Source of the DNA: Serripes groenlandicus | Lineage: Eukaryota; Mollusca; Bivalvia; Cardiida; Cardiidae | Length of the DNA: 64,000 nucleotides | Direction of reading: 5' to 3' | NCBI GenBank assembly: GCA_031761405.1 | Contig: JASEVX010000011.1 | Span: 33,623,822-33,687,821, forward strand | Shown here: positions 2,600 through 55,312 of the stretch, in pieces | Position numbering within the stretch: position 1 is the first letter of the stretch | Layout of the letters: each line of letters starts with the position of its first letter | Position numbers and translations under genes: made by a program | The notes under the pieces: model-generated | Told to the model about the DNA's origin: nothing | The model's database searches: none | What the model saw: only the letters and a program-made list of their open reading frames with translations

Positions 2600-5096
2600 C
2601 AATACACACAAGCCTCCAAAAGTCTTCCGACAAGTCACTTCAATAGACATGCCAAACCCCATTGGTCTTCTGAGGTAAAGCAATCGTATGCACAAATGCT
2701 TCATCTACGCAACATTTGGTTCGAATCTGGAAGGCCTAGGGACCAATCCCAAGTTTACTTGTCCTATAAACAGGCAAAAACTGCGTTTAGGCGTACAGAA
2801 AGACACGCCCGCGAGATGTACGAAAACTCAGTTTTCGACCAACTCAATAAAGCAGCCGAACTAGACTATAGGGTATTCTGGAAGCTGCTTCGTCAAAAAA
2901 GTGGTAAAAACTTCGACACTTGCTCACAAATAGTAGTTGCAGAGAGTACATTTGAAACACATGAAGTAACTAACGGCTTTCGCGAATACTTCGCCCATGT
3001 ATTTGACAATATTTGTACTGACGATACCATTAACAGCCCCTTAAGTAATGAACTCAGTAACTATTTCAATACCCGCGGAAGTCAAATCGTCCAAACCATT
3101 ACACGCGAATTCAGAACGGACGAAATCGAAAGCGTAGTCAAAATCCTCCAAAAGCGGAAATCTCCTGGGATTTACTGTATCCTTAACGAGCATGTTATAC
3201 ACGCAGGCAAACCGATAGTACACATACTAACATTACTGTTCAACTCGATCCTAAAGTACGAAAAGTTACCTAAAAATTGGCAAACTAGCGTTCTTATCCC
3301 GATCTACAAGGGCAAAGGAAAAAACAAATCTGACCCTTCTAGCTATCGTCCTGTCTCTCTTTTGCCGTGCTTTAGTAAACTATTTGAGAAACTGCTTTTA
3401 AATCGAATACAAGCATATTTATCTCTGTGTAATAGTCAATTCCCATGCCCCCAACAACACGGCTTCCAAAAACAATTAAAGTGTATTACTACGTCGTTCA
3501 ACGTCCAGGAAACTGTGTACTACAACGTTGAGCGTCAGAGTGACGTCTATGTCGCTAGTCTTGATCAAAAAGGCGCCTTCGATACAGTCAGATATAAATC
3601 CCTAATGCTTAAGCTCGGACGGATGGGACTCGTTGGTAAAATTCTTCGAATCATCCGTGATTCTTATACCGATTTAAATTGCTTAATTCGCTATACTAAC
3701 CATACGTCCGATACCTTCAACGTGGTGCGCGAGGTACGTCAGGGAGGGGTGATGTCCACATTCCTCTATCTGGTCTACATCAATGCCCTGATAACTGAAC
3801 TACAAGACAGCAACTTAGGAACAAAGGTATTGTCTACAACGGTTAGCAACCCGTCATTTGCTGATGACATATCATTAACAGCCATTTCCCACCTTAATTT
3901 ACAGAAAATGACGGATATCGTGTACAGGTATTGCAAAACATGGTGTATTGATATTAACGTGAACAAGTCAAATGTCATTGTGTTTAGCACAAAGCGTCAA
4001 CCGCCAGCGGTCGGAATTATGTATGGCGAGCATTTTATCCCCCAAGTAAAATCCTTAAGCCACCTAGGAATTACTCACGATTCGAACATGAAACTGAGTT
4101 AACGTATCAATGACAGGATTCAAAAGGCCCGTAATGCTCTTTTCTCCATGGTTGGGCAAGGTGTCAATCCCCAAGGAGTCAATCCAATGGTTTCCGCAAG
4201 TTTATATTGCAAAATTATACTCCCTATCCACCTGTACGGAGCAGAGATTTGGAGTAATATGACTACCTCTGATGTGAAACATCTCCAAACATTCCAGCAT
4301 TATGTCGCGAAAAAGATACAGGGGTTCTCTCGAAGAACCAGATCTGACATGGCGGAGTCAATGCTCGGTCTGTATAGGGTATCAAGCACAATCGATAAGA
4401 GGAAATTTATGTTCCTTCACAAAATACTAGAGCTACCAGATTCGTGTAAAAGAAATTTTTGTCAAGAAGTACTATATGTACATGTCAGACAAAAGTTCAG
4501 TTACTCTTGGTTTCGTCCCAGATGTATGTCATATAGTCAACAAGTATAACCTACACTCAATTCTGAACAACTATTTTCAGACTAATTCACTGCCGTCTAA
4601 ATGTGCATGGAAGTCCACTGTACGTAATGTTGTTCACACCCGCGAACAATTCCTACTAAACGAACGTTTGTCGACTCACCCAGATTTCCTGTTTTTTCAT
4701 ACGCTGCAGCCTTGCAATGAACCTTGCATTGTTTACAAGGTATCAAATGTCAGTACATTTCGACCTATCATGAGTGCGGTAGCTAAGCTATGGTCACGCC
4801 CAACATTATGTATCAATACTGTCTGCACTATATGTAATCAACCACAACAAGAAGAGTAAGTACACAGACTTTCTGATTGCCATGTCATTGTAGGACTGAA
4901 GCAAAAATTAAAATCCACACTATTCAGAAATTGCAGCAGATCCTTCGCACACGATATATACGCTCTAGATAGCTACTCATTAACGCTTAGCATGTTAGGT
5001 GCGCCGATAATAACTCTACCAATAGAATTACAAAGAAAGGCATTTCTAGAAATAACCTTTAATTACATATACCAGTGTCTTAAAATGTATCTTTAA
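2600..5096 (+). pseudogene. 5'-truncated, broken non-LTR retrotransposon (LINE) reverse transcriptase ORF
   Basis: This is the ORF2-type polyprotein of a jockey-superfamily (CR1/L2-like) LINE. The frame is open from 2600 and the first ATG is at 2696. Reverse transcriptase blocks appear in order: SYRPVSLLP, QQHGFQ, LDQKGAFDTV, VRQGGVMST, the catalytic FADD near 3857-3868, and the later SLSHLGI. The usual thumb and C-terminal region follows. The coding frame is damaged in three places: an in-frame TAA at 4100-4102, a frameshift between about 4445 and 4476, and an in-frame TAA at 4857-4859. After the last stop the frame continues as recognisable LINE C-terminus to a natural stop at 5094-5096. 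No apurinic endonuclease domain is present upstream, so the copy is 5'-truncated, as dead LINE copies commonly are. It cannot make an active protein. The clade assignment is approximate. Confidence 0.88.
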
Positions 5097-5900
5097 GAAT
5101 GAAAATACATTTCAATACATCTGGGTATGAATATAATCAATAGATACTTGAGATATCATTCTGATTTATTTCACCCATTCTGATTTATTTCCAGCAGGGA
5201 CATTATATTGTAATATAGTGTCCCTGTTCCCAGTGACACGGTTTTATGTAATTGGCTTATACCAGATAGTATTGGACTTTCTTCTACAAAGTGTATTTCA
5301 TCTCCTACAATATTTCATAATTCACATTTTCTTTCATCAAAAAGGAAAAATACTAGTCTTTTATAAGGGATTTAAAAAAAACAAGACTCAAATCATTTCA
5401 TATTTCAACAACGTGATTGAACACACCATTACAAACTAAGATTTCTAAATATAGATGTTTATATAACTAAATGTAAATTAAAGCGGAGACTCTGGTGAGA
5501 ATGAACGAATGCTCCTGTTCACTGTTCTCAGATGCATTAATTATACGCGGCCGTTAATTTTTTTAGCTAGTCATGTTTGATTGATTTGAGTTAATTTGTT
5601 GTATACATATGTTCAGTCATATCACTGCAGCTAGTTCATCTAACCATGTACTTCCTGGGTTTGTCACAACAGCATAACACTGCATAGAACCTTTTTCAAG
5701 GGCTGTAATTGAGCCAATTGGTGAAAGACGAAATACACTCGTTATGTACAATGATTTATTTATAACAAAATATTAAATGCATCACAACTTAGTTATTTGA
5801 ATACATTTATTACTCGTGTTGGCTAATTTGATACTCTATCATTTTCACATCTTCTGAAATGACCGGTTGATGGAATTCAAAAGCAAATCAATTGTGCAAT
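5097..5900 (+). other. LINE 3' trailer and unique AT-rich spacer with a hairpin at 5197-5224
   Basis: Directly 3' of the LINE stop is AT-rich DNA with a near-perfect hairpin. GGGACATTATATT (5197-5209) pairs with AATATAGTGTCCC (5212-5224) with one mismatch. Structured 3' ends are common in LINEs as recognition sites for their reverse transcriptase, so this may be the element's 3' UTR; that is an inference. The exact 3' end of the LINE was not located. No gene is seen up to the minisatellite at 5906. Confidence 0.45.
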
Positions 5901-5905
5901 ACCCC

Positions 5906-7305
5906 AACAGGGGGGTTGGTTTCCTTTTAAGTCATGGTGTTACAGTTTTACGACAGGGGGTTGGTTTCCTTTTAAGTCATGGTGTTACAGTTTTAAAACA
6001 GGAGGTTGGTTTCCTTTAAAGTCATGGTGTTACAGTTTTACAACAGGGGGTTGGTTTCCTTTTAAGTCATGGTGTTACAGTTTTACAAAATTGGGTTGGT
6101 TTCCTTTTAAGTCATGGTGTTACAGTTTTACAACATGGGGTTGGTTTCCTTTTAAGTCATGGTGTTACAGTTTTACAACAGGCGGTTGGTTTCCTTTTAA
6201 GTCATGGTGTTACAGTTTTAAAACAGGGGGTTGGTTTCCTTTAAAGTCATGGTGTTACAGTTTTACAACAGGAGGTTGGTTTCCTTTAAAGTCATGGTGT
6301 TACAGTTTTACAACAGGGGGTTGGTTTCCATTTAAGTCATGGTGTTACAGTTTTACAACAGGGGGTTGGTTTCCTTTAAAGTCATGGTGTTACAGTTTTA
6401 CAACAGGGGGTTGGTTTCCTTTTAAGTCATGGTGTTACAGTTTTATAACATGGAGTTGGTTTCCTTTAAAGTCCTGGAGTTACAGTTTTACAACAGGGGG
6501 TTGGTTTCCTTTTAAGTCATGGTGTTACAGTTTTATAACATGGAGTTGGTTTCCTTTAAAGTCCTGGTGTTACAGTTTTACAACAGGGGGTTGGTTTCCT
6601 TTAAAGTCATGGTGTTACAGTTTTACAACAGGGGGTTGGGTTTCCTTTTAAGTCAAGGTGTTACAGTTTTACAACATGAAGTTGGTTTCCTTTAAAGTCC
6701 TGGTGTTAGAGTTTTACAACAGGGGGTTGGTTTCCTTTTAAGTCATGGTGTTACAATTTTATAACATGGAGTTGGTTTCCTTTAAAGTCCTGGTGTTACA
6801 GTTTTACAACAGGGGGTTGGTTTCCTTTAAAGTCATGGTGTTACAGTTTTACAACAGGGGGTTGGTTTCCTTTTAAATCAAGGTGTTACAGTTTTACAAC
6901 ATGGAGTTGGTTTCCTTTAAAGTCCTGGTGTTACAGTTTTACAACAGGGGGTTGGTTTCCTTTTAAGTCATGGTGTTACAGTTTTATAACATGGAGTTGG
7001 TTTCCTTTAAAGTCCTGGTGTTACAGTTTTACAACAGGGGGTTGGTTTCCTTTAAAGTCATGGTGTTACAGCTTTACAACAGGATGTTGGTTTCCTTTAA
7101 AGTCATGGTGTTACAGTTTTACAACAGGGGGTTGGTTTCCTTTTAAGTCATGGTGTTACAGTTTTACAACAGGGGGTTGGTTTCCTTTTAAGTCATGGTG
7201 TTACAGTTTTACAACAGGATGTTGGTTTCCTTTTAAGTCAAGGTGTTACAGTTTTAAAACAGTGGGTTGGTTTCCTTTTAACTCAAGGTGTTGCAGTTTT
7301 ACAAC
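5906..7305. repeat. Minisatellite, 45-bp unit, about 31 copies
   Basis: The unit reads GGGGGTTGGTTTCCTTTTAA then GTCATGGTGTTACAG and TTTTACAACA. Variants include TTTAAAG for TTTTAAG, CCTGG for CATGG, and ATGGAG or AGGATG for AGGGGG. Because 45 is a multiple of three, one frame stays open for 186 residues (6091-6651) as a monotonous 15-residue repeat. This is a repeat artefact with no sign of selection. Variant units recur in alternation, which suggests block duplication. Confidence 0.95.
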
Positions 7306-7391
7306 CAGGTGAACTGCGGCTATATACTATCAAAAGCGAATAAAGACACAAAAACCTTCACAATGTGTAAATATTTTGCAGAATGTAAATA

Positions 7392-15372: not shown

Positions 15373-16230
15373 TGAATACGCTACGTAATCGTAGTTACAT
15401 GTAGCAATTATTTAAAAACCTCGATGTCGTTGTGTGTGTATGACGTGACCCAAAAGGCCTATAATTATGTTATTAGGATTAAAACTGTCTTTGACGCTTT
15501 ATTTAACGCAGTCATCTTAAAAAATGGATAAACAGCTGACGAAGCAAGATTATATCTGCCTGTGACGCTTTATTTAACACAGTCATTTTGAAAACAGCTG
15601 ACTCAGCAAGATTTTATATACTTGGTTCCACTCATTTCAGAAGTGTTTGTGTGGCATTTAACGCCTCTTTCAACATGTGTGCCCAGTAATATCATGGTGT
15701 TTCCTAGGTAAGTTACCAGAATTACTGGTATATTTATTCTGACAGCAGCCAGTAAGTAATGCCTACCCCACAACCCCAGTAGTAATGCTAGCCCAACGAA
15801 CCTGAGTGCCAAGTAGGGAAAGCCATTACTACCATTTTTAAAGCGACTGAAATCCAGATGGCACGAACAAAAAAACAAAAAAAAACACGTCGAATTCGCC
15901 CTAAATGTTATTCTTTATGTTATCCAAGTAAAACCAGGGTAGAAAATGTATCGTTTTTTATCAATAAAGTGAACTTGAGTCGTTTTCAATTGTCCCGTTG
16001 AAGGGGTTTCCTATTTAAAAATACTTACCCCGTTACTGACAGGGTAGAATTTGCGATGGAAAAAGTATCGAAAACAAGAAAATCTCACCGATTATAGCGG
16101 TATGTAATATGTCAGTTATCATATTTTAATGCCCCAAATACAAAAATAACACTTATTTTATTAAAATTGGAAATTTTATTTTTTTTCGACAGTTGGGTAT
16201 CTGGAGTTCAGTCGCTTTAAAGTATTTGGT
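15373..16230. other. Non-coding spacer with a minus-strand SINE (15690-15870) and a short duplicated segment
   Basis: 15480-15610 holds a roughly 83-bp segment present twice (TGACGCTTTATTTAAC.CAGTCAT and AACAGCTGAC..AGCAAGAT). 15690-15870 is a minus-strand SINE fragment (CCTAGGTAAGTTACCAGAAT, then AGTGCCAAGTAGGGAAAGCC, ACTACCATTTTTAAAG). The 91-residue minus frame over it is a shadow. No gene is seen. Confidence 0.6.
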
Positions 16231-16239
16231 ATGAACTGT

Positions 16240-18094
16240 CACCTCCAACACTCGAGACGTACGCTCTATCACTACAACATCGAGGCGATCATCCCGGTAG
16301 TTATGATGACCCGCGACCTATCAAACTTGAGACGTACGCTCTTTCACTACAACACCGAGGCGATCATCTCGGTAGTTATGATGACCCGCGACCTATCAAA
16401 CTTGAGACGTACGCTCTATCACTACAACACCGAGGCGATCATCACGGTAGTTATGATGACTCGCGACCTATCAAACTTGAGACGTACGCTCTATCACTAC
16501 AGCACCGAGGCGATCATCTCGGTAGTTATGATGACCCGCGACCTATCAAACTTGAGACGTACGCTCTATCACTACAACACCGAGGCGATCATCTCGGTAG
16601 TTATGATGACCCGCGACCTATCAAACTTGAGACGTACGCTCTATCACTACAACACCGAGGCGATCATCTCGGTAGTTATGATGACCCGTGACCTATCAAA
16701 CTTGAGACGTACGCTCTATCACTATAACACCGAGGCGATCATCTCGGTAGTTATGATGACCCGCGACCTATCAAACTTGAGACGTACGCTCTATCACTAC
16801 AACACCGAGGCGATCATCACGGTAGTTATGATGACTCGCGACCTATCAAACTTGAGACGTACGCTCTATCACTACAGCACCGAGGCGATCATCTCGGTAG
16901 TTATGATGACCCGCGACCTATCAAACTTGAGACGTACGCTCTATCACTACAACACCGAGGCGATCATCTCGGTAGTTATGATGACCCGCGACCTATCAAA
17001 CTTGAGACGTACGCTCTATCACTACAACACCGAGGCGATCATCTCGGTAGTTATGATGACCCGTGACCTATCAAACTTAAGACGTACGCTCTATCACTAC
17101 AACACCGAGGCGATCATCTCGGTAGTTATGATGACCCGCGACCTATCAAACTTAAGACGTACGCTCTATCACTACAACACCGAGGCGATCATCTCGGTAG
17201 TTATGATGACCCGCGACCTATCAAACTTGAGACGTACGCTCTATCACTACAACACCGAGGCGATCATCTCGGTAGTTATGATGACCCGCGACCTATCAAA
17301 CTTGAGACGTACGCTCTATCACTACAACACCGAGGCGATCATCTCGGTAGTTATGATGACCCGCGACCTATCAAACTTGAGACGTACGCTCTATCACTAC
17401 AACACCGAGGTGATCACCCTGGTATTGATAATGACCCGCGATCTTCCACACCCGATACATACTCACTATTACTACAACTCAAAGACGATCATCCCGGTAT
17501 TGATAATGACCCGAGACGTACTCTCTATCATTACAACTCAGAGGCGATCATCCCGGTATTGATAATGACCCGAGACGTACTCTCTATCATTACAACTCAA
17601 AGGTGATCATCCCGGTATTGATAATGACCCGCGACCTCCCAGACCCGAGACGTACTCTCTATCATTACAACTCAAAGACGATCATCCCGGTATTGATAAT
17701 GAGTATTAATGACCCGCGACCTCACACACCCGAGACGTACTCACTATTACTACAACCCAAAGGTGATCATCCCGGTATTGATAATGACCCGAGACGTACT
17801 CACTATTACTACAACTCAAAGGTGATCATCCCGGTATTGATAATGACCCGAGACGTACTCACTATTACTACAACTCAAAGGTGATCATCCCGGTATTGAT
17901 AATGACCCGAGACGTACTCACTATTACTACAACTCAAAGGTGATCATCCCGGTATTGATAATGACCCGAGACCTACTCACTATTACTACAACTCAAAGGT
18001 GATCATCCCGGTATTGATAATGACCCGAGACGTACTCACTAGTACTACAACTCAAAGGTGATCATCCCGGTATTGATAATGACCCGCGACCTCA
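16240..18094. repeat. Compound minisatellite: 75-bp units (about 15) then 60-bp units (about 11)
   Basis: The 75-bp part (to about 17440) has GAGACGTACGCTCTATCACT, ACAACACCGAGGCGATCATC, TCGGTAGTTATGATGACCCG and CGACCTATCAAACTT. The 60-bp part has GATCATCCCGGTATTGATAA, TGACCCGAGACGTACTCACT and ATTACTACAACTCAAAGGT, lacking about 15 bp of the larger unit. In the 75-bp part, variant markers recur 375 bp apart (five units), so it has a higher-order structure. Both lengths are multiples of three, so a 443-residue frame stays open (16231-17562). This is judged an artefact because the peptide is a bare repeat with no known domain and the array continues past its stop. Confidence 0.92.
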
Positions 18095-19839: not shown

Positions 19840-20290
19840 ACTTCACCCAGACGACATTTGACATCTGCTATTGAACATGACTTTTGAAAAGATTGCAATA
19901 AAATGTGAATTTACTCAAAACGAGGAATTTCCCCTTTGATTGCAATATTTTCAACTCTTTAACCCTTTCCCTCATACGACAATTCTGCAGCAGACGACTT
20001 TGAACATATATTGTCAAAAAATAGAAAATCTCTATAATTGAATGGATAACCTATGACTAAAAGTGAAAAACATTGTGTCAAAAGGAGAAATTGCTTGTTT
20101 TGAGCAATTTCTTCTTTTGTCACTATGTTTTCAAAAAGCCGTCTGCTGCAGAGGCGTCAGAAAGCGTCTATATGAGGGAAAGGGTTAACAATATTAATAT
20201 GTCAGTTTTCTAGATTTTTGAAATTGTTCGTCTGATGATTGTAAAGCAGACGCCCTTTGAGAAAGTCATGTGAAGTAATTGGTTAAAACT
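19840..20290. mobile_element. MITE of a related family split by a younger TTAA-type MITE
   Basis: The outer element (CAGACGACATTTGACATCTG, TTGCAATAAAATGTGAATTT, TTGCAATATTTTCAACTCTT, then after the insert TTTCTAGATTTTTGAAATTG, TCGTCTGATGATTGTAAAGC) matches 43064-43275 on both sides. It is interrupted exactly at TTAA by the insert at 19959-20188, while the related copy at about 43187 is uninterrupted. Confidence 0.75.
19959..20188. mobile_element. TTAA-flanked MITE (piggyBac-like target), nested copy
   Basis: TTAA (19959-19962), CCCTTTCCCTCATACGACAA, CTGCAGCAGACGACTTTGAA, a central palindrome GCTTGTTTTGAGC flanked by AGAAATT and AATTTCT, CCGTCTGCTGCAGAGGCGTC, TATATGAGGGAAAGGG, TTAA (20185-20188). 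The ends are inverted repeats and the TTAA duplication is what piggyBac-type transposases make. It has no coding capacity. Confidence 0.85.
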
Positions 20291-21761: not shown

Positions 21762-21769
21762 GTACAGTT
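21762..21769. repeat. Left target-site duplication GTACAGTT
   Basis: Identical to 31280-31287 on the other side of the transposon. Eight base pairs is the size made by P-superfamily (and hAT) transposases. Confidence 0.9.
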
Positions 21770-22280
21770 CACAGGTGCCAGACGCGTTGATTGGACTCCC
21801 ATGGGATACAACCCTAAAAACCCACAAAATTACACCAAAATATCTTAAACACTTACAAATAACAACAATTCAAACAGAAAATAACTTTTTTTCATTTTTC
21901 CTTCCTTTATAAAGGTATTGAACAAACCTGGGATTTTTCTCTCAAAAACACGACATCGCCTGCATTTGCGATCGTAGCACATTCAATTTTGGCTCGATCT
22001 CGGCCATATCGGTCTCAATCGTTACGGGATAGTTCACAGAAACACAGACAAACATCGGTTTCAACCTTTTTTCAACGGCGTTGACACAACAGGCAGACAA
22101 AGTCGAAGAAACTCAGGTCGGACACGATCGCGTTAGATCACGCATACAAAAAATGTAACAAATGCATTCGTTACAGTTTTTAGCGCCGAATAAACTATTG
22201 CAAATAATGAAATCAACTATTCTGTTAAACTTACCACCACAGATTTTCTCTCGTTCGACGTAGTACAGCCAGTCTTCGAT
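21770..22280 (+). repeat. Left terminal inverted repeat of the P-type transposon
   Basis: 511 bp; reverse complement of 30752-31279. By eye the inner 380 bp are identical between the arms. Differences lie near 21895-21910: a block of about 17 bp present only in the right arm and one CCTTCC/CCTTTC change. Just inside the repeat, TTGACCCGGAAGT (22332-22344) is present again in inverted orientation at 30690-30702. Confidence 0.92.
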
Positions 22281-22547
22281 GAAATCAAGTCAACAACATT
22301 TTATAACTGCAGGCCTGCGCTTACAATTTTCTTGACCCGGAAGTAGTTGCGGCATAAAATTAGAGATTTCCGGTTTCGTCGTTATACGTATAGGTAAGTT
22401 AGGGAACCAGTATTTTGTAAACATTGATCAGCTGTATGTAAAGACCCGCCCTATTTTTGAAGCAAGTTATTTTGTAGTAAACTACATCAATTAAGGACAA
22501 AATGCCTATAGTTACCTGGTAAATGATGTTTCTGTATTATTATAAAG
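22281..22547. other. Left subterminal region of the transposon, 3' of the PHD exon
   Basis: Contains the inverted 13-mer TTGACCCGGAAGT (22332-22344). No gene. The minus-strand stop of the PHD exon is at 22548-22550. Confidence 0.6.
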
Positions 22548-24213
22548 TTATAAACATTCACTACAATAAAAGATGGAGCCTTTTCTATTAAATTTTTTCC
22601 ATTTCATGTGGTGTTTTAGTCCGGCACATGTACGGTGTAGCCATGCGGAACAACTGTCGCATTGTATCCAATCTGTGTCTTTTGTAATAGTTAAACATTT
22701 TTTACATTTTGAAGACACATCTTCATTATCAGAACACTCCAGTGGCTCATCCTGTGAAGTACCAGGCACAGGCGATTTGTTCAACTCGGGAGTGCATGAT
22801 GACTCTGGCCTCTGCTCACATTCAAAATCACTATTTGATGAAGATTGGTTTTCATCAGGAGGCTCATCATTTTTACTGATTGAGGGGTCATTATTTTTCC
22901 CTTTTGTTCTTCTTTTTCTTTTTTTGGTTTTCTTTTCTGCATTTTCTTCATTTGTCTGTACATTTTCCTGTACTTGATCTTCATTTAAATCACTTTTTCT
23001 TTTATTTTTTTTAACCTCTTTAGAAACCAAAATTTGCTTTCTGTGTGCCATTTTTTTATGAACTTGATAAATGTCTATAAGGTCTTTCCTGAATTGTCCA
23101 AAAATCACAAGTAAATAGAGTTTAACAATTTTTTGAAAAATAATATTTATTATTTCCTGTTTATCAACACTTGTTTCTTCTCTATTTAAAAGTTCACTTG
23201 TTTTTTCTGTGCCCTGATTTTCAATAACACTGTAAAAGCTTTGAAATAAATCACTGTTCTCATAAGTTGTTTTTTTACATGACTCAAAAAAATCACTTCC
23301 ATGTGTGTTGAAGTTTTCACTGGTAATCATAGCCAGGCAAAATTCTGAAAGTTTTAGGAAAAATTTGAATAAAGGATCAGAAATATTCGTGAGTCCTCTG
23401 TTAAGATTTTGCTTTCTGGTTGTATCTAACAATGAATCAGGTTCAGTACTATTCCCAAGAATGTATTGTTCATCTACTCTTAAGGAATCCATAATTTGTG
23501 TGGCACACATTGCTTCATCATAACCCTGTTGTCCTTCTACAGTTTTTGTATACCTTAAAGCTTTCTTTTTGTTGATCATCTTAAACCTTATTTTAGCTAT
23601 GCAATATCCACCAATGTATCTAATCCTTGCGCGTGATGCGTTTGTTACAGATCTTATTGACAGATTTTTCTCAGAACTTGGGTAAACTTCAGCCTTTTTC
23701 TTTAGAATATATTTTCTAATTTCTACAGATATATTGAAACAGATATGTTTGTGTTCTGCTGTGAATGCTTCATTTTCGAATAATAACATGCAACTCAAAA
23801 TAAATTCAGCACTGTTTAAGTGTTCATGAATAGATGAATAGAATTGCCCTAGATCTTTAGCTTTAACTGGTCCTTCAAATTTTAGAGTTTCTATTAATGA
23901 CATGATTTTATTGTACTCTCCTTGGCAAAAGTTTAAGTATTTCAACCTATCCAAATTATTTAGAATACAGTTTGTATTGTACTGAAAAGGAGTTAAAACT
24001 TCATCTGTTTTCAGTTTTTCTGTTATCATGTTCAAATTCAAATCTTCAGGTATTTCTATTTGATTACCTTGCAAATTTATTGTTTTGATAATATCATCAA
24101 ATTCTTCATCAAATTCTTCATCAAATGAATTCTCTTCACTTATTTCTATGTCGGGCAAAATATCATTGTTTAAAACTTCCGGTACAGTGAAAAAGTTGGT
24201 AGCCTCTTTCTGC
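22548..24213 (-). CDS. Final exon of the transposon's minus-strand gene: acidic/basic protein with C-terminal PHD finger
   Basis: The frame is open from 24311, but the first 33 codons run through a MITE end and a likely intron. A good acceptor (TTTTATTTGCAG, ending at 24214 on the minus strand) places the exon start at 24213 in phase 2. Numbering from 24311, there is an acidic stretch near residues 60-72 (ENSFDEEFDEEFDD), a conserved-looking patch RYIGGYCIAK near 232-241, and two basic nuclear-localisation-like clusters (KKNKRK, KKTKKRKRRTKGK). A Ser/Glu-rich linker follows, then a C4HC3 zinc finger at 536-586 (CKKC, QCDSC, LHRTC, YCSEC). PHD fingers usually read histone H3 tails, so a chromatin-targeting role is inferred. 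The splice phase matches the helicase exon at 27857-28057, so this is probably the C-terminal half of one protein. No damage is seen in this exon. Confidence 0.8.
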
Positions 24214-24252
24214 CTGCAAATAAAACAAATTAATAATGTCACAACTGTCAGC

Positions 24253-24482
24253 TTAACCCTTTCCCTCATACGACAATTCTGCAGCAGACGACTTTGAACA
24301 TATTTTGTCAAAAAATAGAAAATCTCTTTAATTGAATGGATAACCTATGACTAAAAATGGAAAACATCGTGGCAAAAGGAGAAATTGCTCGTTTTGAGCA
24401 ATTTCTTCTTTTGTCACTATGTTTTCATAAAGCCGTCTGCTGCAGAGGCGTCAGAAAGCGTCTATATGAGGAAAAGGGTTAA
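24253..24482. mobile_element. TTAA-flanked MITE, copy 1 in the transposon
   Basis: TTAA at 24253-24256 and 24479-24482. Inverted ends CCCTTTCCCTCATACGACAA and TATATGAGGAAAAGGG, with central palindrome GAAATTGCTCGTTTTGAGCA. It sits just upstream of the predicted acceptor of the PHD exon, so splicing would remove it; otherwise it would add a foreign N-terminus. Confidence 0.9.
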
Positions 24483-24614
24483 TATGTATATATTAAGTTA
24501 GAAATATATTGAACAATTTCAAGTGAAATCAGCACTACTGAACCCACTATTGATGTTAACTATAGATTTATTCTAATTATGCCGTAACATCAGTAAGACT
24601 TGAAAATTTGGACA

Positions 24615-24844
24615 TTAACCCTTTCCCTCATACGGTAATACTGCAGCAGACGAATTTGAACGTATTTTGTCAAAACATAGAAAATCTCAATAATTAAATG
24701 GATAACCTATGACTAAAAATGGAAAACATCGTGGCAAAAGGAGAAATTGCTCGTTTTGAGCAATTTCTTCTTTTGTCACTATGTTTTCATAAAGCCGTCT
24801 GCTGCAGAGGCGTCAGAAAGCGTCTATATGAGGAAAAGGGTTAA
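24615..24844. mobile_element. TTAA-flanked MITE, copy 2 in the transposon
   Basis: TTAA at 24615-24618 and 24841-24844. The ends are CCCTTTCCCTCATACGGTAA and GTCTATATGAGGAAAAGGG. It differs from copy 1 at ACGGTAATACTG and CGAATTTGAACG. Confidence 0.9.
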
Positions 24845-24976
24845 TATGTATATATTAAGTTAGAAATATATTGAACAATTTCAAGTGAAATCAGCACTAC
24901 TGAACCCACTATTGATGTTAACTATAGATTTATTCTAATTATGCCGTAACATCAGTAAGACTTGAAAATTTGGACA

Positions 24977-25202
24977 TTAGCCCTTTCCCTCATACGGTAA
25001 TACTGCAGCAGACGAATTTGAACGTATTTTGTCAAAACATAGAAAATCTCAATAATTAAATGGATAACCTATGACAAAAAGTGGAAAACATTGTGGCAAA
25101 AGGAGAAATTGCACATTGTGCAATTTCTTCTTTTGTCACTATGTTTTCAAAAGCCGTCTGCTGCAGAGGCGTCAGAAAGCGTCTATATGTGGAAAGGGTT
25201 AA
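24977..25202. mobile_element. TTAA-flanked MITE, copy 3 in the transposon
   Basis: Left TTAG (24977-24980), right TTAA (25199-25202). Its central palindrome is shortened to GAAATTGCACATTGTGCAAT. It ends six bases before the ATG at 25208 of the transposase frame. The reading frame open from 25091 runs through it, but the MITE part is not considered transposase sequence. Confidence 0.9.
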
Positions 25203-25207
25203 ATCAT

Positions 25208-27673
25208 ATGGAGGCATGTCCATTTAAGGAAAGGTGGTACATTGATTTTCTTACAAATTACTTTTTTAATTACAGGCTGTTGAATAGGGTGAAGGAGGAT
25301 AGCAGTTTGGAAACGGATATCAATTCTTTGTATGAAGCTTTCAAGTTTGAAATTTTGGAGTCTGGCTATAATGTTAATATTGGAAAGAGAGTGTTTATTG
25401 AACATTTATTGAAAGTATATCCTACGATACAAAAGGAAAGACGTCAGCAAAATAACTCAAGCTGTACAGTATATAAAGGAATTTCTTTAAAACAATTAAG
25501 TATTGAAAAATCTATTGAATGCTCCACTTTAGGAGAAATAACACACTTTTTTCCAGAAGAATTTACATTAAATTTTGAAAACCACAATAACGTTTCTTGT
25601 GAGTTAAAATGTGAAAGTAAGATTAATGGAAATCATGTATACAAAAAGGTTACATTTTTCGAGAACAGGAAGTGGGCATTAGAAATCAGTGGCAACAAGG
25701 TTGATCTTCCAAAATTATTCATTAATGATGACTTTGAAATGTGCAGAGAAAGTGTTCAAAATGTTTGTAAATCTGTCATAATGTTAAAACTATGTGTGGC
25801 AGTAAAGTTAACTAAATGAGTTGTGGTCAGCAGATACCACACAATAGAAACTTTCAATTCTGGTGAGATTCAAGAAAGAAAAATAAGATCTATCACCTGT
25901 GATAAAGTAGTGCCTATAAACTCTATTTCAAATACATGCAGAAAATGCCAAAAAATGACATTTGGACAACCTAAAACTGAAACTTTGATTAATGCAGAAA
26001 AAAATAAAGAAAATGAGCAAACTAAGGAGAATAAAACAACTGAAAGTAAAGGAAAGACAGCAACAAGAGAAGAAATTCTAAGACTGTTTCCAAATGCTAA
26101 TGAAGAAATGATAGAGATACTTTTAAGTCAAGCTAAAAACATTAATAAAAATCCAAAAGGTAGACGATGGAGTAAAGGGGTAATTACTGCATGTATGCAA
26201 TGGTACTGCCGTAGTCCCCAGTCTTACACAGCTTTTAGAGATAGTCAATATCTAATTCTTCCATCACCATCATTGTTAGTGTTATATAAGAACAGAGTGA
26301 AACAAGAAGTTGGCTTTCATAAAGATGTTTTTAAATGGATGCATGAGGAAGCAAAGAGAAGAAATATACCTGAAGAAGGATGGACCGGAGGGATAATCTT
26401 AGATGAGATGAGCATACAGGCTGACATTCAAATAAGTAAGAGTGGTGATATGGTAGAGTTATCTGGTTTAGTTGAAGTTGGTGAAGAAGGAAACATTTGT
26501 CATACTATAAGAACAGGGAAAAATGACCAAACTCTTGGAAGCCATGCTCTTCAAATGATATTTTTGGGCATCAGTGGATTTCGTTTCCCTTTTGCTCATT
26601 TTATCACTGATGGAATTCAAGCAACAGAATTGTACTCCCTTTTTTGGGAAGCTGTTGACACTCTTCAGAAGTTTGGGTTTAGCACTGTATATACATGCAT
26701 GGACGGTGCCCAGTCTAACAGGTCTTTCATGAAGTATAATATTGGTGAAAAGTCTACAACATTTACATGTTCCAGCCCATGCAATTTGGATTCCATGATT
26801 TTCATGATGGATGTGTCGCATGTAATTAAAAAACTCAGAAACAATGTATTAAAAAGTGGAATACAAAACAACAGCACTAGGCTATTAACACTACCCTCTT
26901 CTCGCACAGTTCAATGGCAAATGTTTATCGACTGTTTTCATTGGGATAAAACAAATGCTGTCCAGATACACAAGAAATTAACAAATGAACACCTTTTCCC
27001 ATCAAATCAAACCAAAATGAGAAACCATCTTGCTGATGAAGTTTTGAATACAGACATGCTACATTTAATGTTACAATATCAACTTTATTTAGGCCCTAAA
27101 GGCAATATACTTGATGGCGCAATTGAATTTTTAAGAAACACGTCTATGTTAATTGATATATTCAGGGGTAGGGCACCCATAAGGTCAATACATGATGAAA
27201 GGTTAGAACAATTAAGTAATATCAACAACTGGTTTTATAAATGGGAGACAGCAGTGAAAGCATCAACAGATATTTCTAACAAAGAAAAAGTACATAAACT
27301 GATGTCATACCAATGCCATGAGGACATTCATGCTTGTATTATTGGTTTCGTAAACCTGTGTCATAAACTTCTAAAAAAGGATTCTCTACTTTTCATAACT
27401 CCTACACTTATTAACTCTGATGTTGTAGAAAATACATTCAATCAAATGAGAAGCACATACAATGGGGCAAACAGTAACCCCAATGCCTTACAATATAAAA
27501 GAACATTGAATAGTATTATTCTAGGACAGAAAACTGTATCAATTAAGGCGAATGCTGGAAGGAGTAAAGACGGGGCACTACTTTTTGATTGTAAATTGAA
27601 GAAGTCGGCTACTAAAAGAAAACGTGAACCAGCGAAGGGCGACCAGAAAGCCATTAAAGTCATCAGATGCTAG
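25208..27673 (+). pseudogene. P-element/THAP9-like transposase, interrupted by one in-frame TGA
   Basis: An RNase H-like DDE/D transposase that would cut and join the element's ends. The two open parts (to 25819, and 25823-27673) are in one frame, separated only by TGA at 25817-25819. Numbering from 25823: CDK..CRKCQK (26, 39-42), a possible zinc-binding remnant; RRWSKG..SPQSYTAFRD and LPSPSLL (115-152), typical of P/THAP9 proteins; ILDEMSI with first Asp 194; TCMDGAQSNR with second Asp 294; DVSHVIKKLRNNV (330-342); and VENTFNQMRSTYNGANSNP with Glu 536. The order D-D-E fits the P family, with the insertion domain between the second Asp and the Glu. No THAP domain is visible. The start is unsure: an ATG at 25208, or a spliced start at the strong acceptor TTTTTTAATTACAG (exon from 25276) with unknown 5' exons. 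The stop may be a real mutation, an assembly error or part of a retained intron. Confidence 0.85.
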
Positions 27674-27856
27674 AAGGTAAGCATTTTTGCATTATATTAC
27701 CATATACTGTTATATAAACACAAGCAGGAGTAAAGATGGGCACTTAATTGGGTCTTATTTTTTCTAGTCCCCTCTCAAGATAAAATAATGTGGATGTTTA
27801 TTTGGGGGAGAAGGAGCTTATACGAAGGTATATGGTATAACATTTTATACATTTAC
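27674..27856. other. Short spacer between the transposase stop and the helicase exon 3 donor
   Basis: No coding sequence is seen. The transposase ends at 27671-27673 (TAG) and its poly(A) signal was not located. The minus-strand donor is at 27856. Confidence 0.5.
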
Positions 27857-28057
27857 CTTACAAGTACTTGACAACAAGTGTTGTTTTCAGATGGTTCTTC
27901 AGTTGCCATATTAACAAAGTTTACAACAGTGTCTGGGTGTGCCATACAACTGTTACGACTGAAATTAATGACTCTAAGTCCTGATCTTGTTCTGGCCCTG
28001 CCTATAGCCACACCAAGCTGTCCAGGCTTAAATATACCTTTACAGTCTACTTCAACC
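27857..28057 (-). CDS. Pif1-like helicase exon 3 (C-terminal helicase motifs)
   Basis: 201 bp between the acceptor CTTATTTTCAG (exon begins 28057) and the donor AAG/GTAAATG (exon ends 27857). It encodes the Pif1 signature RVEVDCKGIFKPGQLGVAIG followed by RARTRSGLRVINF, i.e. helicase motif VI with its arginine finger, then a short tail. Unspliced, the frame would stop at TAA eight bases further on. Spliced, it enters the PHD exon at 24213 in frame. Confidence 0.82.
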
Positions 28058-28083
28058 CTGAAAATAAGAAAATATGTTAAAGG

Positions 28084-28307
28084 TTAACCCTTTACCTCAT
28101 ACGACAATTCCGAAGCAGACGACTTATTTTGTCAAAACATAGAAAATCTCCATAGTTGAATAGATAAATTATGACAACAAGTGGAAAACATTGTGGCAAA
28201 AGGAGAAATTGCACGTTTTGTGCAATTTCTTCTTTTGTCACTATGTTTTCAAAAAAGCCGTCTGCTGAAGAGGCGTCAGAAAGCGTCTATATGAGGGAAA
28301 GGGTTAA
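28084..28307. mobile_element. TTAA-flanked MITE, copy 4, in helicase intron 2
   Basis: TTAA at 28084-28087 and 28304-28307, ends CCCTTTACCTCATACGACAA and GTCTATATGAGGGAAAGGG. It lies between helicase exons 2 and 3 and so would be spliced out. The 60-residue frame over it is an artefact. Confidence 0.9.
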
Positions 28308-28676
28308 CATATCTTTAATGTTTCCAGTGTTTTTATTATGTTTTACAGTTTAATCTGTGAAATTAATGAATATACAGACTGCCCTTTGGAGAATAAAATG
28401 TTGTCTCTATTTATAGGTGGTCTTCATTCACAGGTTATATAACTTTGAAATTGTTTCAATGGTAAATAATACAAATTAGGTGATGTTGAGAAATCTTCAT
28501 AGGAGATATTTAACACAGGTGTGACAGTACACATTTTCTGACACTACATGTCATGGGGTATTTTGGTTAAAATGACAGTGAACACTGCTTCAACATATAA
28601 AAGCTAGAGTAAATAACATTTCAGTTTTTAAGATTTTCAAATTGGTTTCTTCTATTGTAAAAGAAATCAGATGTAC
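28308..28676. other. Intron sequence between helicase exons 2 and 3, no other feature seen
   Basis: AT-rich. The intron runs from the donor at 28676 to the acceptor at 28058 on the minus strand. Confidence 0.5.
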
Positions 28677-28782
28677 CTGTCAAGAGTCATTCCCTGCGAC
28701 TTGTGGATCGTTAATGCAAAAGCCAATTTAAGAGGTAACTGTTCTCTGGCTGCAACATCTCTGTTCTCTCTACGACTGAAAA
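28677..28782 (-). CDS. Pif1-like helicase exon 2
   Basis: 106 bp with the helicase motif V region: FSRRENRDVAAREQLPLKLA then FALTIHKSQGMTLD, almost the textbook Pif1 sequence. The acceptor TTTTAG ends at 28783 and the donor GTACAT starts at 28676, both on the minus strand. Phases join cleanly to exon 1 (one base carried over) and exon 3 (two bases carried over). No damage is seen. Confidence 0.82.
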
Positions 28783-29599
28783 CTAAAATCAGACATCCAT
28801 TTAATAACTTTTCATTTTAGTAAAAATTATTTTGTCGCTTTCACACAAATTGTAATGTTGAATATATATTGTATTTTTTCATGAAAAATAACACATATTT
28901 GCCATAATTGGTTATGTCTGTCCCTTAATCACCTTTCATACGAGCCACAGCGTGTACATAATAGCCGGTTGAGGTGTAAAAATGAAAGCGAATGTTGCGG
29001 CCATTATGCATTTGCTAGGTGCCTACTGTAAGGTATGATAACACTGTTCGGTATAATTCTGGTTCTCTTCAAACTGTTACGCTACATTTTTGCTTCCGTT
29101 CGTTTTCCTTTTCTGAAATTCAACCCTTTGCGAATGAAAAGGTACACATTGAATTTTGTGAACAGTGTAGGACCAGATCAACCTGTACATCCGCACAGTC
29201 TGGTCACAAAGTACTAACATAATTACGCCTGTCAGGGCCACTTGGTATGGTACAAGTTTGCTACACTGTTCAAGAAATAATTGAGCGAAAAGGTACATAT
29301 TTGCTTTCGTGAGCATTGTATATCCAGATAAGATCAGCCTGTACATCAGCACATGCTGATCTGGTCCTACAGGGTTCACAAAATCTACACTGTTCATGTA
29401 TAACTTACGTAATTGAGCATGTCCATGCGAAAATATACAAGTTTGCTTTCGTGAACAGTGTAGACTGAGATGAGCATGTGCGGATGCACATGCTGATCTT
29501 TGCCTACACTGTTCAAAAATGCCAACTGTATAACTTTGAAGAAGTTCAAATGTAAGAGTATTAATTTATGAATAACATGTATTTTGAAATAAGACTTAC
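28783..29599. other. Helicase intron 1, with small palindromic repeats at about 29137-29517
   Basis: Two or three partly overlapping palindromic elements share GAACAGTGTAG, TGAGCATGTGCGGATGCACA or CAGCCTGTACATCAGCACAT and GCCTACACTGTTC. They resemble a MITE family in which arms of TTTGCTTTCGTGAACAGTGT surround a hairpin. The small frames at 29019-29397 lie in these repeats and are not genes. Confidence 0.6.
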
Positions 29600-30573
29600 C
29601 TGTAAATTTAAGCTTTTTAATTGGAATCTTCATGTCAAGAGATGGAAACTCTACCACTGGTCCGTTGTCATCAATATCATAGACCACGCCCCTAAGTCCA
29701 TTTACAAGCTTGTCCGAAAGATTTCGTAGTAAAATAACTGGGACTCCTATTTTCAGCCATAATATACGTGGTGCAAGAATATTTGACAAGTACCTACTTT
29801 CCCCATTATCACTTGAAATGTACTCAAATATTGTTCCAGGAAAGTCTATCAAAGAGTTTCTGTTGAAATCAAGTTTTATACTATCCTCTTCATTAGGAAG
29901 TGGTCTGGTAAGGCTTTTCATAAACTGAATGGTTTCATTTGATGTTGAGCCATGTAAAACTTCCTGAATGGCTTCTATGAAACGATCCTCAGTCTGGCGA
30001 ACAACATTTGTGAGAGTGACTCTATGTTTAAAAGTAGTGTTAAATATGTTGCTGGTAAAAACAGAATTCTCCATTTTCATTGCAAAGTGAGTTAGGCACT
30101 GGGGCAAGTTGAAAAAAGTCTCCACATAAAACAAGTTGAATGCCACCAAATAGTAAGTTTTCATTCTTCAAAGAACACACTGCATTCAAGCTGTTAAACA
30201 TATTTTTGCTCAACATTGAGCATTCATCAATAATTAACAAATCAGTATTTTTAATATTGTTAACTGTTTGCGCATACTTTACATTGTTATTTAAAACACA
30301 TTTTATTTCAGACGGAGAAAAGCGGCCATCATCTATCCCTGACCAGCGATGTATGGTTTGGGCTTTCACTGGAATGTTTTTATACACCGAACATGCTATG
30401 CCTGTGGTGCAATTCAAGGAGACACGTTTTTGAGATTCAACAGCTTCACGAACTATCTCATGAATTAGAAAAGATTTTCCAGTTCCAGCAGCCCCCAATA
30501 TTAACAAATTGTGACCATTTAACACTAGACTCAGTGCTTCTTTTTGTTCTTTATTAAGAATTGCCATTGTCAC
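29600..30573 (-). pseudogene. Pif1-like helicase exon 1 (ATPase core), with a one-base frameshift
   Basis: A superfamily 1B 5'-3' DNA helicase core. It starts at ATG 30573 (a second ATG lies two codons on) about 180 bp inside the right terminal repeat. Residues: LNKEQKEAL (Q motif-like, 6-14), Walker A GAAGTGKS (27-34), TTGIA (56-60), TIHRWSGI (73-80), Walker B LLIIDECSM (112-120), GDFFQLAP (151-158). The frame then breaks in a run of five T on the minus strand (30057-30061). Dropping one base restores the expected continuation with VRQTEDRFI, GVPVILLRNLS and LVNGLRGVVYDI, ending at the donor CAG/GTAAGT (29600/29599). The break could be a real mutation or a homopolymer sequencing error. In Pif1 proteins this enzyme unwinds DNA; a job in replication or repair of the excised element is inferred. 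Confidence 0.85.
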
Positions 30574-30751
30574 ACGGTCCCTGTCAAACTACTTTCGGTT
30601 TCAAAACGGATGTTTACAAAATTATTGGTTTCACTGTTCATACGGATATTCAATGATGCGGGGAACCAGCCAATTAGTTTACCACGAGGACTTCCGGGTC
30701 AATTTTTAGGAAAACAGTTGATGAAACATTGACGGTAATAAATTAGTTTTA
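30574..30751. promoter_or_regulatory. Right subterminal region; likely promoter side of the helicase gene
   Basis: Between the helicase ATG and the right terminal repeat lies ACTTCCGGGTCAA (30690-30702), the inverted copy of 22332-22344. Its CCGGAAGT core equals the consensus of ETS-type promoter elements, and a pair in mirror positions could also be a transposase-binding site. No TATA box stands out. The regulatory role is inferred. Confidence 0.35.
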
Positions 30752-31279
30752 ATCGAAGACTGGCTGTACTACGTCGAACGAGAGAAAATCTGTGGTGGTA
30801 AGTTTAACAGAATAGTTGATTTCATTATTTGCAATAGTTTATTCGGCGCTAAAAACTGTAACGAATGCATTTGTTACATTTTTTGTATGCGTGATCTAAC
30901 GCGATCGTGTCCGACCTGAGTTTCTTCGACTTTGTCTGCCTGTTGTGTCAACGCCGTTGAAAAAAGGTTGAAACCGATGTTTGTCTGTGTTTCTGTGAAC
31001 TATCCCGTAACGATTGAGACCGATATGGCCGAGATCGAGCCAAAATTGAATGTGCTACGATCGCAAATGCAGGCGATGTCGTGTTTTTGAGAGAAAAATC
31101 CCAGGTTTGTTCAATACCTTTATAAAGAAAGGAAAAATGAAAAAAATTAGGACTAAAAAAAAAGTTATTTTCTGTTTGAATTGTTGTTATTTGTAAGTGT
31201 TTAAGATATTTTGGTGTAATTTTGTGGGTTTTTAGGGTTGTATCCCATGGGAGTCCAATCAACGCGTCTGGCACCTGTG
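30752..31279 (-). repeat. Right terminal inverted repeat of the P-type transposon
   Basis: 528 bp, matching 21770-22280 in reverse complement, with about 17 extra bases near 31140-31165 (AATTAGGACTAAA region). The 108-residue minus frame inside it (30948-31274) has no recognisable domain. Its start lies in the repeat, its counterpart in the left arm is broken by the indel, and it is not called as a gene. Confidence 0.92.
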
Positions 31280-31287
31280 GTACAGTT
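31280..31287. repeat. Right target-site duplication GTACAGTT
   Basis: Exact match to 21762-21769. Confidence 0.9.
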
Positions 31288-37759: not shown

Positions 37760-37950
37760 TTAACCCTTTCCCTCATATGACAATTCTGCAGCAGACGACT
37801 TTGAACATATTTTGTCAAAACATAGAAAATCTCAATAATTGAATGGATAACCTGTGACAAAAAGTGGAAAACATTGTGGCAATTTCTTCTTTTGTCACTA
37901 TCTTTTCAAAAAGCTGTCTGCTGCAGAGGCGTCAGAACGCTTGGACGAAT
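37760..37950. mobile_element. TTAA-type MITE, truncated at its right end
   Basis: TTAACCCTTTCCCTCATATG, CTGCAGCAGACGACTTTGAA, GTGGCAATTTCTTC (central palindrome half lost) and GCAGAGGCGTCAGAACGCTT, then unrelated sequence. The terminal GAAAGGGTTAA is missing. Confidence 0.82.
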
Positions 37951-45235: not shown

Positions 45236-46192
45236 TCAGACGTTAAAGGGTTAATACTTAACCTGCTGAATTCTTGCAACTGTAATCTTCACCCCTTCGC
45301 GTACAAAATAATACACAATGTTGTTTAAAGTAGCGTACAAAATAATACACACTTTTTAAAGTCGCGTATAAAATAATACACACTGTTGTTTAAAGTTGCG
45401 TGCATAAAGTACGCACTGTTGCTTAAGTTGAGCATTACGTAATATCTGATCGGGTAAATTATTTGATTAATGCAATAAATAAAGGAATACTAGATCAGAC
45501 ATGTACTTATTTCCCCTTAAATCCTATGTTATGGGTACTCAAAAGAATCGTCTCACTGAGACAATTCTTATGAGTACCCACAACATAGGGTTTGATTTAT
45601 TAATAAGAGAGACACAGTGTGGTAATGTCAGTTTATTCCCCCTTATTTTGACATCTGTGACATATAGATAAATAGACTTTCCGTTGACTTGTTTGTTAAT
45701 ACTCTCCTAACCAATAATTGCATCCAAATAGCTCACGGTATGTTTTTCTTTTAACGACGTTAATTTCATGTAGTTTAGCGTTTTGTCGTGTTACGTTTAT
45801 GTACGACAACGAGTGACGCGGCGTCTGAATTATGAATTCATTCCTCGACTTTAATCTTTTATACCATCTTGTAAAGACCGTTTAGCGCAAAGAATCTAAT
45901 AAAAGTAAAAGCATCTGGAAAAGTTTATCTTATGTCATTTTAATCAAGTGAAATGGTTATCTCAATAGAATCTTGGTGAAACAAGCTAACAAGCACAAGC
46001 TAACGTACGTAAAATATCTAATCAGTAGCCTGTTTATGCAATTACCCGTTGCCACATGCAGACAAACTTTAACACATCTGTAGAGGATGAGGATTTTCAA
46101 AAGAATATGACAAAAGGAGCACGGTATGCAATTTCTTGTCGCAACTCAATCCAATAATTATACTTTAATTTATAGACATTTTCCTCGTTTAA
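45236..46192. other. Spacer with a short tandem repeat (about 45298-45420) and a long hairpin (45523-45589)
   Basis: 45298-45420 holds three to four copies of a roughly 35-bp unit (GCGTACAAAATAATACACAC, TGTTGTTTAAAGT). 45523-45589 is an inverted repeat: CCTATGTTATGGGTACTCAA and AAGAATCGTCTCA pair with TGAGACAATTCTTATGAGTA and CCCACAACATAGG. The stem is about 33 bp with three mismatches and almost no loop. A weak MITE relic lies at 46030-46170. No gene. Confidence 0.7.
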
Positions 46193-46405
46193 TTAACCCT
46201 TTCCCTCATATAGACTCTTTTTGACGTTTCTGCAGCAGTAGCATTTTTGAAAACATAGTGACAAAAGAAGAAATTGCTCAAAACGAGCAGTTTCTCCTTT
46301 TGCCACAATGTTTTATAATCATTCAATTATAAAGATTTTCTATTTTCTGACAAAATATGTTCAAAGTCGTCTGCTGCAGAATTGTCGTATTAGAGAAAGG
46401 GTTAA
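46193..46405. mobile_element. TTAA-flanked MITE (opposite orientation)
   Basis: TTAA 46193-46196, CCCTTTCCCTCATATAGACT, TTTCTGCAGCAGTAGCATTT, GAAATTGCTCAAAACGAGCA, GTTTCTCCTTTTGCCACAAT, GTTCAAAGTCGTCTGCTGCA, GAATTGTCG, GAGAAAGGG, TTAA 46402-46405. The order of asymmetric parts is reversed relative to 24253-24482. Confidence 0.85.
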
Positions 46406-51193: not shown

Positions 51194-51964
51194 TGACTTT
51201 ACGGCAATTTGCCTTCATGTGAAACCGAAACGGAGATGCAATATGACCTATATTCACCGCATTGGCTTATGGTATTTCCCATCATGCACTTGCATGATAA
51301 GTTCAATTTCCGTTCTGGTTAGTGCACATTGATATCTTGATCTCACAGCAGTAAACATCGTCGGTCGGCCTTGAAAACTCTGATTTAGTAAGTTTAACAG
51401 ATGTCCGATATTATTTTCAGAGGAAGAGCCACGTCAGTTGAAAGGGCTGTACATATATACAGTCTCGTAAGAGTCTTCACTTTCTGTTTCGTCAGAGGGT
51501 ACAGGTTCGATCCCCGGTCAAGTCATACCAAAGACTTTAGAAAAAGACAGTATGGCTGCTCTCCGTGGCGCCAAGGGTTGCGGGGTTAGCATCACGACTG
51601 AGCGACTGAGCGACTGATTGGTGCCATGATGAATGGACCAATAGTTCTGTTAACTTACCCAGTAATCGACGTGATAGAACTGAGAACATGTTGAAAGCGT
51701 TTGGCAAAATACTTGAATAATAGACTGGCTGGTGTCCTCTATTGGTTGATTACAGTTTAAGCCCAGTTCAATGGTATTTTAATAACGCCAGGCGGCCAGT
51801 TCACTTGGCGTGTATTTCACACCAGGACTCCACCTAGCAGTCTTTCCAGGCAAATCGACGCTAGTATTGATTACTTTCGACAACACAGGACCGTACTGAG
51901 ATAAGAACTCAGGACGACTTGGAAGCATGCCCTCGTCGCTACCGACAGAGCTCTATATAATGCA
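51194..51964 (+). mobile_element. Spacer containing a tRNA-derived SINE (about 51480-51712)
   Basis: The SINE has the B-box-like ACAGGTTCGATCCCCGGTCA, then AGTCATACCAAAGACTTTAG, GTTAACTTACCCAGTAATCG and GATAGAACTGAGAACATGTT. A degenerate A-box half may lie at 51430-51470. The rest shows no gene. Confidence 0.65.
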
Positions 51965-52193
51965 TTAACCCATTCCCATATACATACGCATTCGTATGCC
52001 TCTGCAGCAGACGTCTTTTCAAAACAGTGTGGAAAAAGGAGAAATTGCTCAGGATGAGCAATTTATTCTTTTGCCACACTGTTTTAAAGTGTATGTAGCG
52101 ATTAAACTCTCATTCATAGAGTTTATCCATAGTGTTGCCAATTTGTTTTCAAAGTCGTCTGCTACAGAATTGTTGTTAGTGAGAAAGGGTTAA
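51965..52193. mobile_element. TTAA-flanked MITE
   Basis: TTAACCCATTCCCATATACA at the left and GTGAGAAAGGGTTAA at the right. Inside are CTCTGCAGCAGACGTCTTTT, GAAATTGCTCAGGATGAGCA, ATTTATTCTTTTGCCACACT and AAAGTCGTCTGCTACAGAAT. The 65-residue frame is an artefact. Confidence 0.85.
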
Positions 52194-55096: not shown

Positions 55097-55312
55097 TTAA
55101 CCCTTTCCCACATATAACAATTCTGCAGCAGACGACTTTAAAAGTATCCAGGCAAAAATAATAATAAATTTCGATAGATTTAAGCATTATAATTGAATAG
55201 ATTTGAAAACATTGTATCAATAGGAGACATTGTTCATTATGAGAATTTCTCTGTTTTCAAAATGTTTTCAAAAGTCGTCTGCCGCAAAGGCGCCAGAAAA
55301 CAAAAGGGTTAC
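55097..55312. mobile_element. TTAA-type MITE inserted at the end of the 37-bp array
   Basis: TTAACCCTTTCCCACATATA, CTGCAGCAGACGACTTTAAA, GTCGTCTGCCGCAAAGGCGC and an eroded right end CAAAAGGGTTAC. The right TTAA is lost. Confidence 0.8.

Follow-up and report, generated by a model that had tools for sequence, protein, structure and literature searches.

The P-type DNA transposons described in the accessible literature encode a THAP-bearing transposase and rely on host repair (PMC4168063, PMC7776569; here and below, papers are cited for the available portions of their text), and AcademH and KolobokH are precedents for the gain of a helicase by a cut-and-paste element (PMC10045372, PMC10799480, PMC9587614). 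Here, we describe a 9.5-kb P-type element from the bivalve Serripes groenlandicus, lying at positions 21762-31287 of a 64-kb stretch of DNA (contig JASEVX010000011.1, positions 33,623,822 to 33,687,821; hereafter the window). On balance, we favor its interpretation as a two-gene DNA transposon, whose second gene is predicted to code for one Pif1-helicase/PHD protein that would act together with the transposase.

The element is bounded by terminal inverted repeats (TIRs): a left copy of 515 nt (21770..22284, plus strand), which starts with CACAGGTGCC, and a right copy of 532 nt (30748..31279, minus strand). Aligned end to end, these differ by two mismatches and one 17-nt gap, a divergence small enough to suggest a fairly recent insertion. 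They are flanked by exactly matching copies of the target-site duplication GTACAGTT (21762..21769 and 31280..31287); the chance of such an 8-mer match at a fixed place is about 4^-8, and the duplication is known from this one copy only. An earlier note, made from the letters of this DNA, had described TIRs of about 0.5 kb, an exact 8-bp duplication, and transposase, Pif1 and PHD parts between one pair of ends; all of this is borne out, with the TIRs and the duplication enclosing both genes. Comparison of the element with the remainder of the window revealed no further copy of it, and the significant matches were nearly all to a ~230-bp repeat. A TATA-like palindrome, CTTTATAAAG, is present in both TIRs, at 21904-21915 in the left one and at the mirror position in the right one, and could act as a promoter driving each gene inward from the respective end.

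The transposase exon (25276..27673, plus strand) is delineated by its collinearity with the relative P0001 (71% over 795 residues), by a match of the window piece to PF21787 (TNP-like RNase H N; E-value 1.8e-15), a domain present in all 22 transposase relatives scanned, and by the predicted fold of P0001, which is that of the P transposase. The D-D-E triad and the D(2)H motif align with 6p5a, and the catalytic codons start at 26402 (D), 26702 (D) and 27428 (E), with the D(2)H residues at 26810 and 26819. The GTP-binding insertion domain, PF21788, was not detected in the window piece at E-values up to 1; it was found in two of the 22 relatives and in P0016, and the fold alignment of P0001 spans it. 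Upstream of the exon, no right-phase donor with an ATG was found that would supply a start exon. The element is a member of the P superfamily by its catalytic core and not a THAP-bearing P element: the previous assignment of the transposase to the P/THAP9 kind stands for the core, with its PF21787 domain, D-D-E triad and D(2)H motif, and fails at the N terminus, where the predicted fold is RFX-like and no THAP was found.

This RFX-like domain (~25280-25495, plus strand), delimited on the predicted fold of P0001, is predicted to replace the usual THAP domain. No THAP domain was detected at E-values up to 1 in the 22 relatives or in five further distinct ones, and no C2CH pattern occurs on the plus strand between 21770 and 25276, a search to be read with the caveat that the transposase start exon was not found. 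The RFX-like domain may bind the TIRs, possibly at an imperfect palindrome of 34 nt inside the left one (22148-22181). The motif GTAAC occurs three times in the TIR, a number reached in 68 of 1000 shuffles.

The second gene is predicted to comprise four exons on the minus strand, separated by introns that are all GT-AG and of compatible phases. Exon 1 (29600..30567), recognized through PF05970 and PF21530, holds the ATG, Walker A (30495), Walker B (30234), motif III (30123) and the 2B domain. Exons 2 (28677..28782) and 3 (27857..28057), located by tblastn with P0135 and by splice sites, carry the helicase motifs TIHKSQGMTL and GVAIGRAR, respectively. Exon 4 (22548..24213), supported by the relatives P0121-P0140, PF00628, a model and PDB matches, encodes a helical middle domain and a C-terminal PHD finger (~22551-22715). 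From the exon 1 junction, 657 codons run uninterrupted until the stop is reached. The last intron, placed by its splice sites, spans 3643 nt (24214..27856), and the known transposase exon sits within it on the opposite strand. The helicase pieces match PF05970 (PIF1; E-value 5.4e-25) and PF21530 (Pif1 2B; E-value 6.4e-10). The PHD finger scores slightly below the curated cut-off of 24 against PF00628 (22.4 bits; E-value 1.3e-4) and also matches solved PHD fingers (KDM5B; E-value 1.4e-5); it aligns with the fingers of KDM5B and JARID1A, including both tryptophans, which we take to have a cage role. Hence, the helicase motifs and the PHD finger reported in the earlier note are both upheld, whereas their description as two separate parts gives way, on gene structure and relatives, to a single predicted fusion gene.

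With respect to the middle domain, the idea that it is the C-terminal domain of a P transposase in a displaced position was considered and rejected: profile comparison with the transposase alignment returned a probability of 0.10, and none of 120 transposases reached an E-value below 0.5 with the middle-domain profile. Fold searches returned clear matches to PHD fingers only, the middle domain not having been folded alone. The family PF27108 appears in the precomputed annotation of P0133, P0138 and P0150, was not returned by the Pfam scan for P0133 and P0138, and may be a newer name for this domain.

Two lesions missing from the earlier note mark the window copy: an in-frame TGA (25817-25819) breaks the transposase exon, and the frame of Pif1-PHD exon 1 changes in a run of five T (~30057-30061), owing either to a genuine mutation or to an error in the assembly. 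The copy is therefore defective in both genes and not autonomous, and an intact relative would probably have to assist it for it to move. Of the initial view of an autonomous element with accessory functions, what survives is a P-type element carrying Pif1 and PHD.

Fusions of this kind, with their motifs kept, are found in many bivalves. Searches with the PHD protein retrieved relatives that start with Pif1, namely Mya P0129, Mercenaria P0132, Saccostrea P0135, Ruditapes P0137, and P0140, and a profile search added longer fusions including P0144, P0145, P0146 (Mytilus trossulus) and P0147. Among the matches listed, comprising 139 proteins (P0121-P0259), the middle domain occurs in 41; Pif1 is found in 25 of these, always in front, and the PHD pattern in 25, with all three parts present in 12 and Walker A plus PHD in five. 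Further, three pairs of transposase and PHD protein lie on contigs of identical size (P0002/P0122, 9,026; P0003/P0123, 6,360; P0027/P0124, 1,746,463) in a comparison of 20 PHD-protein matches with the 120 listed of 152 transposase matches, the profile-search matches being left aside; three shared sizes were reached in 14 of 20,000 trials with jittered sizes. The transposase and Pif1-PHD trees agree for linked pairs, P0003 grouping with P0027 and P0123 with P0124 (both 100/100), and the window groups with P0002 in the former (97/99) and weakly with P0122 in the latter (83/65). In a Pif1 tree computed without P0140 and P0175, 27 rows of element-type proteins and mollusc fragments split at 100/100 from 26 other Pif1 rows, which include 11 animal host PIF1 proteins; presence of the middle domain is mixed within the 27 because many fragments do not extend far enough to reveal it. 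Judged from these fusion proteins, contig sizes and agreeing trees, the gene set recurs in relatives, and the helicase and PHD parts are no private insertion of this copy, a possibility that had been raised at the outset. Three relatives, P0004, P0032 and P0152, are filed under bacterial names (Sedimenticola and Candidatus Thiodiazotropha bins) and likely represent host DNA in symbiont assemblies.

Briefly, we infer the following mode of action. The transposase would bind the TIRs via its RFX-like winged helix, and its D-D-E site would cut and join DNA, giving rise to the 8-bp duplications. The second protein would use its PHD finger, which retains both KDM5-type tryptophans, to dock on histone H3 tails and would unwind DNA with its Pif1 motor while the donor-site gap is repaired; the element would then be copied back from the sister chromatid, raising its copy number. 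In Drosophila, the host Bloom helicase takes part in donor-break repair (PMC7776569); hence, on our reading, the present transposon lineage would supply a helicase of its own. A bolder version, which we advance quite tentatively, holds that these elements form an ancient and distinct mollusc P-type class, in which an RFX transposase and a chromatin-reading Pif1 motor copy the element into the donor gap, making it self-copying and free of host repair helicases.

Several observations weigh against this scheme. The RFX sequence match is weak in most members (E-value 0.41) and exceeds the Pfam cut-off in one of 27 distinct proteins scanned, and no RFX consensus sites (X-box) were found in the TIR. 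Both genes of the window copy are broken, and the linkage in relatives rests on equal contig sizes rather than on the DNA of a second copy. Two Pif1-PHD proteins, P0140 and P0168 (on 13.4- and 10.6-kb contigs), have no transposase contig of the same size among the 120 of 152 matches listed, and on these sequences coupling in distant lineages does not appear to be supported. Finally, viral contigs scanned with A2 and A1 showed no related loci, and genome contigs gave one remote transposase contig (L001), in which four Pif1-PHD queries had no match.

The antisense position of the transposase within the last Pif1-PHD intron would also be expected if a P-type transposase were nested in the intron of an unrelated Pif1-PHD gene, belonging to the host or another element, with the two not being one mobile unit; the long Pif1-PHD open reading frames on short contigs of 3.3-3.4 kb (P0145, P0147, P0149) would fit this too. 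However, the TIRs and duplication enclose both genes, none of the inverted repeats listed for the window flanks the transposase alone, and three relatives have the transposase and PHD protein on same-size contigs, rendering such nesting very improbable in our estimate. Captured genes are common in transposons, and a P-type transposon could have acquired the Pif1-PHD gene as a passenger without a role in transposition, with which the broken helicase of the window copy is consistent. Yet the recurrence of the fusion with conserved motifs, its separation from host PIF1 as a Pif1 lineage of its own and the match between its tree and that of the transposase for linked pairs argue against this, and we consider a mere passenger unlikely.

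A different role for the partner, which we regard as possible though doubtful, is that of targeting: the second protein would mainly guide insertion into H3K4-methylated chromatin by way of the PHD finger, and Pif1 would open or remodel the target DNA instead of assisting donor repair. The finger indeed resembles readers of methylated H3K4, and the PHD of sea urchin RAG2L binds methylated H3K4 (PMC7204232). However, RAG-like elements have a PHD without a helicase (PMC7204232); thus, targeting alone leaves the Pif1 motor unexplained.

Elsewhere in the window, the ~230-bp repeat resembles a miniature inverted-repeat transposable element, with ends TTAACCCTTT...AAAGGGTTAA and 74-96% identity between copies. 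Four copies, not recorded in the earlier note, lie inside the transposon introns (24253-24482, 24615-24844, 24977-25202 and 28084-28309), three of them spaced by 362 bp; others are at 19959-20188, 37760-37940, 46192-46405, 51964-52193 and 55097-55299. At 2600-4102, a frame of 500 codons encodes a reverse transcriptase domain (PF00078, E-value 6.5e-25) and is likely a retrotransposon remnant, and the long open frames at 5863-7312 and 16165-17606, encoding short repeated peptides only, are minisatellite-like arrays rather than genes.

In terms of known systems, the Serripes element shares with the P element, 1360, Galileo, THAP9 and zebrafish P-like elements the transposase core (by Pfam and fold), the D-D-E triad with D(2)H and the 8-bp duplication, Galileo also being a P-type precedent for its long TIRs (PMC4168063, PMC7776569). 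It departs from the superfamily in its RFX-like N terminus with no THAP found, its Pif1-PHD second gene, its nested layout and its size, the P element measuring 2.9 kb (PMC7776569). AcademH likewise combines cut-and-paste transposition with a helicase, but makes 9-10-bp rather than 8-bp duplications and uses another transposase family (PMC10045372). The same combination marks KolobokH, and one Kolobok family has its helicase on the complementary strand; however, KolobokH has a RecQ helicase and a Kolobok transposase and, in the available text, is a lineage reported from fungi only, and its definition contrasts with the Serripes element, whose helicase is a PIF1 on the other strand (PMC9587614). 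RAG-like elements, found in bivalves too, pair two opposite-strand genes for a DDE transposase (RAG1L) and a PHD partner (RAG2L), but RAG2L has a kelch domain and no helicase, the duplications are of 5 bp and the genes lie tail to tail rather than nested (PMC7204232). The Pfam scan listed no kelch family for the Serripes PHD protein. Helitrons have a Pif1-like helicase and an HUH nuclease and lack inverted repeats and a duplication, whereas the Serripes element has long TIRs, a duplication and a DDE transposase. The likeness lies in encoding a helicase (PMC12730594).

In the literature available, which excluded Repbase and most subscription journals, we found no P-type element that carries Pif1, PHD or RFX, and RFX does not occur in the accessible portion of PMC10027918. 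If our interpretation is correct, several bivalve gene models labeled 'PIF1' or 'uncharacterized' would be transposon genes, and one could test directly what a helicase carried by the element itself does in the repair of the donor site. Further, a lineage that has an RFX-like domain where others have THAP, and that brings along a helicase/chromatin-reader partner, would illustrate how cut-and-paste transposons come to acquire helper machinery, which AcademH, KolobokH and the RAG-like elements have each gained separately.
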